DNA of 64,000 bases from Mesoterricola sediminis (GTDB taxonomy: Bacteria; Acidobacteriota; Holophagae; Holophagales; Holophagaceae): assembly GCF_030295425.1 (NCBI RefSeq), contig NZ_AP027081.1:3703001-3767000 (forward strand). Direction: 5' to 3'. Below, in pieces: positions 7,887 to 9,665 of the stretch. The position numbers were made by a program, and so were the translations under genes. Under the pieces are notes generated by a model. The model saw only the letters and a list, made by a program, of their open reading frames with translations, had not been told where the DNA came from and did no database searches. The first letter of the stretch is position 1, and each line of letters begins with the position of its first letter.

Positions 7887-8282
7887 ATGGCCCTCATCAC
7901 CTGGGACGCCCGGCTCGAGACCGGGCACCCCACCATCGACGAACAGCACAAGGCCCTCATCGATGCCTACAACGCCCTCCACTACGCCATGAAGCAGGGG
8001 AAGGGCAAGGACGAACTCCACAAGGTGCTGAGCTTCCTCGCCGACTACACGGTGTCCCACTTCCGCATGGAGGAGGACCTGATGGCCGCCCACGCGTACG
8101 CCGGTGCCCAGCGGCACAAGGAACTGCACGCGGACCTGGTGGCCAAGGTCACCGACCTGGTCCACAAGCTGAACAGCGGCCAGGCCATGCTCACCCTCCA
8201 GGTGATGGACTTCCTGGAGGGCTGGCTCGTGGAGCACATCCAGGGCGAGGACTACCGCCTCGCCCAGGCCCTGCGCGCCTGA
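7887..8282 (+). CDS. Bacteriohemerythrin
   Basis: 131 aa, with GGAGGT 4-9 nt before the ATG. All seven di-iron ligands of the family are present with canonical spacing: H21, H58, E62, H77, H81, H117 and D122. It is a single-domain cytoplasmic O2-binding four-helix bundle. The upstream region is AT-rich (TACAAT near 7826), and a short inverted repeat ATGGT/ACCAT (7858-7875) lies just before the ribosome site. A GC hairpin (8301-8314) follows the gene but has no U tract. Confidence 0.93.
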   Translation: MALITWDARLETGHPTIDEQHKALIDAYNALHYAMKQGKGKDELHKVLSFLADYTVSHFRMEEDLMAAHAYAGAQRHKELHADLVAKVTDLVHKLNSGQAMLTLQVMDFLEGWLVEHIQGEDYRLAQALRA

Positions 8283-8294
8283 CCGAGCCCCCCC

Positions 8295-8323
8295 TTGCGC
8301 CCCCGGTTCCGGGGACGTAGCCT
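8295..8323 (+). promoter_or_regulatory. Candidate promoter for the Thr leader / short ThrRS unit
   Basis: TTGCGC (8295-8300) and TAGCCT (8318-8323) are separated by exactly 17 bp. Initiation about 7 nt further on would fall at the ATG of the leader peptide (8330), making that peptide leaderless or nearly so. This fits the absence of a ribosome site before it. Both hexamers are weak matches, so the assignment rests on spacing and context. Confidence 0.4.
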
Positions 8324-8329
8324 GGATCC

Positions 8330-8380
8330 ATGGCCTGCGCCGTTGTCACCACCACGACCACCACCGCCCCCGGCGGGTGA
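8330..8380 (+). CDS. Threonine-rich leader peptide upstream of the short ThrRS gene
   Basis: The 16-codon ORF encodes MACAVVTTTTTTAPGG, with six consecutive Thr codons (ACC ACC ACG ACC ACC ACC, 8348-8365), and ends at TGA 103 nt before a threonyl-tRNA synthetase-like gene. Leader peptides rich in the regulatory amino acid are the hallmark of ribosome-mediated attenuation (thrL of E. coli is the classic Thr case). Two structures that could read out ribosome position follow (8413-8478). The reading is inference from sequence, but a Thr run in front of a Thr enzyme is hard to explain otherwise. Confidence 0.6.
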   Translation: MACAVVTTTTTTAPGG

Positions 8381-8412
8381 GGATCGTGCGGACCTGAAAC
8401 GAGCGCACGACC

Positions 8413-8478
8413 CCGACCCCGCCCCCCCGGCGGGGTCGGCGCGTACGGGCCGCCTCCGCCGCCTTTCCCGCACGGAGG
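8413..8478 (+). promoter_or_regulatory. Candidate attenuator structures of the short ThrRS mRNA leader
   Basis: Two elements lie between the leader peptide and the synthetase start. A perfect 11-bp hairpin is formed by CCGACCCCGCC (8413-8423) and GGCGGGGTCGG (8429-8439), loop CCCCC. CCTCCG (8453-8458) can pair with CGGAGG (8473-8478), which is the ribosome site of the synthetase ATG at 8484. GGCGGG at the end of the leader ORF (8372-8377) can also pair with CCCGCC in the left arm of the hairpin, giving an alternative fold. There is no U tract, so translational attenuation by hiding the ribosome site is more likely than transcription termination (inference). Confidence 0.45.
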
Positions 8479-8483
8479 AAACG

Positions 8484-9665
8484 ATGCTGGACCCCCACGA
8501 TCACCGCGCCCTGGGCCGCAGGATGCGCCTGTTCCACCTCCAGGAGGAAGGCCCCGGCATGGTCTTCTGGCACCCCCGCGGGCTGGCCTGCCTGCGTCTC
8601 CTGGAAGCCCGCGTCCGCCGCGTCATGGAGGCCGACGGCTTCCTGGAAGTGCGCACCCCCCAGGTGCTCGCCCGCTCCATGTGGGAGCGCAGCGGCCATT
8701 GGGACGCGTTCCGGGACGGACTCTTCATCGTGGCGGGGGCGCCTGAGCGGGCCATCAAGCCCGTCAACTGCCCCGGCCACATCCAGATCGTCCAGCGCCT
8801 GGCGCCCAGCTGGCGGGACCTGCCCCTCAAAGTGGCGGAGTTCGGCGTCTGCCACCGGAACGAACCCAGCGGGGCGCTGCAGGGGCTCTTCCGCCTCGTC
8901 CAGTTCACCCAGGACGACGGACACCTGTTCTGCCTGGAGGACCAGGTGGTGCCGCAGGTGGCCGGCTTCGCGGCCAGCCTCTTCCGCTTCTACGCGGCCT
9001 CCGGCTTCCCCTCGGCCCAGGTGGCCCTGGCGACCCGGCCCGAAGTGCGGGCCGGCGACGACGCCACCTGGGACCGGGCCGAGGCCTGGCTGGGCGAGGC
9101 GGCCCGACAGGCCGGACTCTCCTTCGAAGTGCATCCGGGGGACGGGGCCTTCTACGGGCCGAAGCTGGAGTTCACCCTGCGCGACCGCCAGGGGCGGCCC
9201 TGGCAGTGCGGCACCCTCCAACTGGACCTGGTGATGCCCGAGCGCTTCGGCCTGGAGGTCGCGGGTCCCGCCGGCCCGCTGCGCCCCGTCATGCTCCACC
9301 GCGCCCTCCTGGGCAGCCTGGAGCGCTTCCTGGGCATCCTCCTGGAGCACCACGGGGGGGACCTGCCGCTGTGGCTGGCCCCGGAGCAGGTGATGCTGGC
9401 GCCGGTGGAGGCCGCCCACCAGGCCTTCGCCGCCCACCTGCGGACCCGCTTCCAGGCCGCGGGCCTCCGGGCCGTGATCGCGCCGCCCGGGGACAGCCTG
9501 GGCCGCAGGGTCCGGACGGCGCGGGACCTGGGCATCCCCTGGTTCGTGGCCCTCGGGGACCGGGAGGCCGCGGGGGGCCCCCTCCACCTCCGCCCCCGCC
9601 GGGGCGAGGGCCGGGAGGCGCCCCCGGAGGATGCGATCGCCTGGCTCGCGGCGCAGGACGCCTGA
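8484..9665 (+). CDS. Short threonyl-tRNA synthetase homologue (catalytic and anticodon-binding domains only)
   Basis: 393 aa from the ATG with GGAGG upstream; the longer frame from 8295 is non-coding leader. It starts at the point where a full ThrRS catalytic core begins (HDHRALGRRMRLFHLQEE, GPGMVFWH) and lacks the TGS and editing domains, about 240 residues. The three zinc ligands are present (C96, H147, H272) with E. coli-like spacing, as are motif 2 (CHRNEPSGALQGLFR), FTQDD, AFYGPKLEF, WQCGTLQLD and motif 3 (HRALLGSLERF). The C-terminal anticodon-binding domain spans about 295-390. It could charge tRNA-Thr without proofreading, act as a back-up or inhibitor-resistant copy, or have a moonlighting role. 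A full-length ThrRS elsewhere in the genome is likely but not visible. Confidence 0.88.
   Translation: MLDPHDHRALGRRMRLFHLQEEGPGMVFWHPRGLACLRLLEARVRRVMEADGFLEVRTPQVLARSMWERSGHWDAFRDGLFIVAGAPERAIKPVNCPGHIQIVQRLAPSWRDLPLKVAEFGVCHRNEPSGALQGLFRLVQFTQDDGHLFCLEDQVVPQVAGFAASLFRFYAASGFPSAQVALATRPEVRAGDDATWDRAEAWLGEAARQAGLSFEVHPGDGAFYGPKLEFTLRDRQGRPWQCGTLQLDLVMPERFGLEVAGPAGPLRPVMLHRALLGSLERFLGILLEHHGGDLPLWLAPEQVMLAPVEAAHQAFAAHLRTRFQAAGLRAVIAPPGDSLGRRVRTARDLGIPWFVALGDREAAGGPLHLRPRRGEGREAPPEDAIAWLAAQDA

Follow-up and report, generated by a model that had tools for sequence, protein, structure and literature searches.

Why should a short open reading frame with six consecutive threonine codons stand in front of a threonyl-tRNA synthetase (ThrRS) gene? 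The locus lies in a 64,000-nucleotide stretch (the window) of the complete, 4.5-Mb genome of Mesoterricola sediminis. The initial annotation had described a six-Thr ORF with its stop 103 nt before a ThrRS homologue, and a promoter with a 17-bp spacer that would place the transcription start at the leader ATG. We found the ORF exactly so: MACAVVTTTTTTAPGG followed by a stop occupies positions 8330-8380 of the forward strand (ATG at 8330, TGA at 8378-8380, 16 codons), its threonine codons, ACC ACC ACG ACC ACC ACC, run without interruption from 8348 to 8365, and 103 nt separate it from the ThrRS ATG at 8484. The upstream neighbour is a bacteriohemerythrin gene ending at 8282, after which the promoter boxes are present on the forward strand (8295-8323), with TTGCGC as the -35 element (8295-8300), a 17-nt spacer and TAGCCT as the -10 element (8318-8323), 6 nt upstream of the leader ATG. 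A generic sigma-70 scan and a terminator scan of the window gave no match, the leader promoter being weak by the former.

The gene downstream (8484-9665, forward strand) encodes a protein of 393 aa made up of the class II core and the anticodon-binding domain only; no other Pfam domain was found in it, and the TGS and editing domains are missing. It spans positions 171-547 of the TIGR00418 profile and scores 373 bits, below the cut-off of 383.65, as expected since the N-terminal domains are absent. An alignment to E. coli ThrRS structures shows that the zinc ligands (Cys334, His385 and His511) and the threonine-binding residues are kept, and the catalytic, zinc and threonine-binding residues are invariant in 74/74 short ThrRS. 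A full-length ThrRS gene accompanies the short one in this genome (open frame of 676 aa, G000:C1:4343215-4344360) and in all 25 other sampled genomes carrying the short gene, although in two or three of these the longer gene is divided between contig ends or was matched piecewise. Since a full-length ThrRS is present in every sampled genome with the short gene, we regard the short enzyme as auxiliary. By analogy with Anabaena T2, for which Ser-tRNA-Thr errors have been measured (PMC4787780), the missing editing domain predicts such errors here, and the full-length enzyme would be available to edit in trans. No conserved operon partner was seen at 15 loci. Two other roles were considered and rejected. 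A defence gene found no match in PADLOC. In an inhibitor-resistant ThrRS of the ObaO type, resistance comes from Gly463 to Ser (E. coli numbering; PMC11252418), and this position is Gly in 74/74 short ThrRS; at position 489, 62 of them have Leu and 12 have Met, and L489M alone gave no resistance (PMC11252418).

In order to follow the leader beyond the window, we used one genome-collection search, which returned 80 loci, 7 with a full-length and 73 with a short ThrRS. Together with the window these make 74 short loci, spanning Acidobacteriota, Myxococcota, Alpha- and Betaproteobacteria (MAG contigs are grouped as labelled in their records), and the nearest relative with the short gene is the Holophagaceae MAG UBA706 (78% identity). 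An upstream short ORF in which Thr codons cluster precedes 73/74 short ThrRS genes, and in 67/74 the leader holds at least five Thr in eight residues; these counts are not independent, since many loci are close relatives (Myxococcus, Corallococcus, Nannocystis), which the subset of 41 leaders used below reduces without removing. The sole exception, L073, has no assignable start. Relatives without a leader in the first scan were full-length ThrRS or L073, and L003 lies on a contig without upstream sequence. About 38 full-length thrS genes scanned upstream (the housekeeping thrS of 27 relatives, of the window's own genome and of its congeners, plus the seven full-length search matches) showed no such Thr leader, with never more than three Thr among eight residues. 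Conservation of the leader ORF and its Thr codons, which the initial annotation had proposed as the check, extends across three phyla, and is restricted to short ThrRS genes.

A search with model R1, whose matches above about E = 0.0001 were mostly other or chance structures and whose stronger ones include some other attenuators of similar build, added L127, a third Holophagaceae copy, and L125, from another acidobacterial family. At L127 (1484-2730) the leader MSHVLTATTTTTAQGG is intact and the ThrRS frame is broken by a frameshift or deletion, suggesting decay or an assembly error. At L125 (minus strand, about 1500-1680) the leader MLELSITHTSTTTTTAIGGSSG stands before a short ThrRS that groups with Betaproteobacteria and would represent an independent transfer. 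Four Ferrovibrio leaders of short ThrRS (L067, L088, L094 and L107) carry mixed Ile/Val/Thr codons (MQSIILTVATIKVTVVGG), which suggests a changed set of sensed amino acids. A tree built from 122 catalytic domains gathered the 81 short forms, without exception, on the same side of a split (support 1.0), joined by L016, a long-branched outlier that is probably not a ThrRS. Since the window clade branches near Myxococcota in this tree and L125 with Betaproteobacteria, the short gene probably entered Acidobacteriota at least twice.

Similar leaders were also observed before genes other than ThrRS. Thr-run leaders of the same design (MNLIQQHLTRTTTTTAPGG...) precede a small isochorismatase-like hydrolase gene (start ALLIIDMQTGLYDG) at L178, L179 and L183 (about 1440-1640), and at L186 (about 1480-1640) the leader MTRTAHHHGHHHPTLAGSAGGLVA, which carries a run of His and a GC hairpin of the same kind, stands before a histidyl-tRNA synthetase-like gene. 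At L190 and L191 (about 1480-1640) a leader with Thr, Ile and Lys (MLKTQIIITPKTTRLRGTL...) precedes an aspartate-semialdehyde dehydrogenase gene, and at L180, L181, L182, L184 and L187 (about 1480-1660) a conserved short ORF of the type M.K.SR..N..MTRFGWAVGGVVR, with the same terminator, precedes a locus that includes a molybdopterin-oxidoreductase-like gene.

The closeness of leader and promoter is a property of the family. The -10 hexamer lies 6-8 nt from the leader start codon in 53/73 loci and 5-10 nt in 65/73, and the leader promoters score above shuffled sequence. The nearest relative, L031 (78%), reads TTGCGC-17-TAGACT-6-ATG, and the other relatives mostly have better promoters (TTGACA or TTGACG) at the same distance from the leader start. 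Given this spacing, the leader transcript probably begins at the start codon itself, that is, as a leaderless mRNA, so that the annotated start at the ATG holds well past the window. Sinorhizobium meliloti trpL is known to have a leader-peptide mRNA that begins with its ATG (PMC7298713); it would resemble the window leader in being leaderless but serves a Trp biosynthesis gene through classical transcription attenuation.

Six segments recur among the leaders: the Thr codons, GGCGGG, CCCCGCC, a GGGG arm, an anti-Shine-Dalgarno and the Shine-Dalgarno. Downstream of the ORFs they appear as a conserved GGCGGG, a CCCCGCC...GGGGC hairpin and a hairpin that hides the Shine-Dalgarno. In the window, all on the forward strand, segment 1, the putative sensor, is the Thr run itself. 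Segment 2 (8372-8390) comprises GGCGGG, which encodes the Gly-Gly of the leader, and TCGTGCG, and can pair as an anti-hairpin with segment 3 (8404-8423; CGCACGA...CCGACCCCGCC). Segment 3 can alternatively pair with segment 4 (8428-8439), the 3' arm of an 11-bp GC hairpin (8413-8423 with 8429-8439). The CGGCGGGG of segment 4 can in turn pair with segment 5 (8454-8461 with 8428-8435), and segment 5, the anti-Shine-Dalgarno CCGCCTCCGCCG (8450-8461), with either segment 4 or the ribosome-binding site (RBS; 8453-8458 with 8473-8478). Segment 6 is the ThrRS Shine-Dalgarno, CGGAGGA (8473-8479). Helix 3:4 is thus a terminator-like hairpin, which helix 2:3 excludes because both use segment 3; helix 5:6 hides the RBS, and helix 4:5 is its alternative. 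The GGCGGG-type motif occurs in 63/73 leaders, at a median of 6 nt past the last Thr codon. Since the stop codon of the window leader falls within segment 2, a ribosome finishing the ORF would cover this segment and one stalled early in the Thr run would leave it free.

We compared these pairings with shuffled partners in 41 leaders less than 80% identical. Long runs of pairs exceeded the shuffled partners for 3:4, 4:5, 5:6 and 2:3: a 3:4 run of at least 6 pairs was present in 36/41 leaders (11.4 expected), and a 4:5 run of at least 9 pairs in 15/41 (1.8 expected). A Shine-Dalgarno hairpin of at least 6 bp was found in 46 of 67 distinct sequences, against a mean of 18 and a maximum of 28 when the anti-Shine-Dalgarno side was shuffled, and its sequence varies by lineage with the pairing kept (CCTCCG/CGGAGG, CCTCCTC/GAGGAGG, GGTCGTCTCC/GGAGACGACC, CGTTCTTC/GGAGAACG). 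On an alignment of 24 sequences, 4:5 was paired in 85.8% of cells, versus 38.7-65.4% in slid registers, and 5:6 in 81.3%, versus 38.9-49.3%. Compensated 4:5 pairs include CGGACGGGGC/GCTCCGTCCG and CGGTTGGGGC/GCTCCAGCCG, to be compared with CGGCGGGG/CTCCGCCG of the window; in Myxococcaceae this helix is imperfect, mostly of 6 pairs. No 3:4 covariation was detected on the same alignment, as this helix hardly varies. From the entire leader RNAalifold retrieved nothing beyond the 3:4 hairpin and one helix of 3 bp, and shuffled sequence of equal composition gives 1:2, 2:3 and 4:5 duplexes at least as strong as those of the window taken by itself. The case for the helices is therefore a comparative one, made across loci and not from the window by itself. 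Predicted energies for the window are -36.0 kcal/mol for 2:3 with 4:5, -34.4 for 3:4 with 5:6, and -44.8 for the latter with the TCGTGCG/CGCACGA helix added. The unmodified minimum-energy fold is stronger than helix 2:3 (-23 kcal/mol), so the on state would have to be reached kinetically, by way of a stalled ribosome, as in known attenuators. The window leader and 12 relatives gave nothing at the gathering score in Rfam, and no relevant family, including Thr_leader, up to E=5; the T-box covariance model gave no match.

These features of the loci (anatomy, conservation, restriction to short ThrRS and pairing potential) make it very probable that the element is a ribosome-mediated attenuator which senses charged tRNA-Thr and controls an auxiliary ThrRS devoid of an editing domain. 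A short ORF with many codons for the regulated amino acid, and predicted to be translated, stands before 73 of the 74 genes, and mutually exclusive helices follow, with the end of the ORF overlapping the first arm of the anti-hairpin. From this arrangement we infer the stall, the switch and the physiological trigger. Transcription would begin at or next to the leader start codon. With Thr-tRNA plentiful, the ribosome would pass the Thr codons, reach the stop at 8378-8380 and cover segment 2, whereupon the GC hairpin 3:4 and the Shine-Dalgarno-hiding helix 5:6 would form and the gene would be off. With Thr-tRNA short, the ribosome would stall in the Thr run and segment 2 would pair with segment 3; 3:4 would be blocked, and the freed segment 4 could take segment 5, exposing the Shine-Dalgarno. 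Such a shortage might arise from lack of threonine, or from failure or inhibition of the main ThrRS. A spare enzyme off in the presence of charged tRNA-Thr and on in its absence would fit an emergency ThrRS. The initial annotation had raised ribosome-mediated attenuation of a ThrRS, and both the restriction of the ORF to short ThrRS genes and the competing helices support it. What changes is the identity of the gene, an auxiliary, editing-less ThrRS and not the housekeeping thrS, and the probable output in the window, where hiding of the RBS is likelier than intrinsic termination.

The output differs between lineages. A U-tract follows 3:4 in 14/15 loci of Alphaproteobacteria and related MAGs and in 8/8 of Burkholderiaceae (22/23 together), in 3/5 of Nannocystis, in 0/23 of Myxococcaceae and in 0/2 of the window clade. 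As judged from this distribution, the sensor is shared among the lineages and the expression platform differs. For Alphaproteobacteria and Burkholderiaceae, helix 3:4 is predicted to act as an intrinsic terminator. No U-tract follows position 8439 in the window, which thus lacks the intrinsic terminator of the transcription-terminating subtype, and a GC hairpin of this kind makes RBS hiding likelier than classical intrinsic termination; control in the window clade and Myxococcaceae is probably exerted at translation initiation (or through Rho-dependent termination).

A simpler scheme would be a classical attenuator of the thr-operon type that acts by termination only, using intrinsic terminators in some lineages and Rho in the window, with the Shine-Dalgarno hairpin and 4:5 incidental. 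The U-tract terminators of the 22/23 Alpha/Burkholderia loci and the classical 1:2/2:3/3:4 geometry agree with it. We consider it unlikely, since neither the window clade nor Myxococcaceae has a U-tract (0/25), and RBS hairpins of differing sequence retain their complementarity in 46/67 loci against 18 expected. The capacity of segment 4 to pair with the anti-Shine-Dalgarno arm suggests a relay joining termination and translation initiation. Tentatively, then, five competing helices (1:2, 2:3, 3:4, 4:5 and 5:6) may form a relay in which one ribosome stalled on a leaderless ORF both blocks termination and unmasks the RBS, and depending on whether a U-tract is present, this relay would switch transcription, as in some lineages, or translation, as in Myxococcaceae and Acidobacteriota. 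As it would turn on a ThrRS without proofreading, threonine stress may shift cells to fast, error-prone (Ser-for-Thr) charging.

Autogenous control, in which the short ThrRS would bind its own leader RNA as E. coli ThrRS binds its operator, the short ORF being incidental, would account for the regulated gene being a ThrRS with its RBS within a hairpin; it is highly improbable, as runs of Thr codons in a promoter-adjacent short ORF are conserved at 73/74 loci, whereas the operator in E. coli is not translated. A chance origin of the Thr run from GC-rich intergenic DNA, in which ACC/ACG repeats can arise, is ruled out for practical purposes by conservation in orthologues of three phyla, by absence before full-length thrS and by rarity in the genome, where runs of five Thr-type codons give 10 pattern matches on both strands of the 4.5 Mb, two of them the MACAVVTTTTTTAPGG leader.

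Attenuation by a leader peptide, the reading we prefer, is classical for the thr, phe and trp operons and for pheST. E. coli thrL-thrABC (Rfam Thr_leader) shares with the window a Thr-codon leader peptide and mutually exclusive helices between ORF and gene, but it controls biosynthesis genes, mixes Thr and Ile codons and has a U-tract terminator. The auxiliary indolmycin-resistant TrpRS of Streptomyces is reportedly under ribosome-mediated attenuation, and would likewise be a spare synthetase induced by a leader sensing its own charged tRNA; unlike it, the short ThrRS bears no resistance signature, as residue 463 shows. In Bacillus subtilis, thrZ is an auxiliary ThrRS under T-box control, like the window gene an inducible second ThrRS answering uncharged tRNA-Thr, but the T-box binds the tRNA directly whereas the sensor proposed here is a translating ribosome. 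Classical attenuators have been described before trpS and leuS in Streptomyces (PMC1262725), and these, like E. coli pheST, place a synthetase gene under a leader rich in its own amino acid, although for amino acids other than threonine. Anabaena ThrS2/T2 is also a second ThrRS with poor editing, expressed under stress (PMC4787780); in contrast to the window enzyme it keeps a degenerate editing domain, and it is repressed by Zur (zinc), with no leader peptide reported. We found no report of leader-peptide attenuation of a ThrRS in the literature searched, most subscription papers lying outside it. As a mechanism this is familiar; what looks new is its use on a ThrRS and in Acidobacteriota, the probable leaderless start and the possible link between termination and RBS unmasking.

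If this reading is correct, ThrRS would join the few synthetases for which regulation by a leader of cognate codons is known, and such leaders would extend into Acidobacteriota. The family would form a natural series, with the same sensor coupled to termination in certain lineages and to the start of translation in others. The second, proofreading-less ThrRS of many soil bacteria could then be understood as an emergency enzyme made only when charged tRNA-Thr is short.
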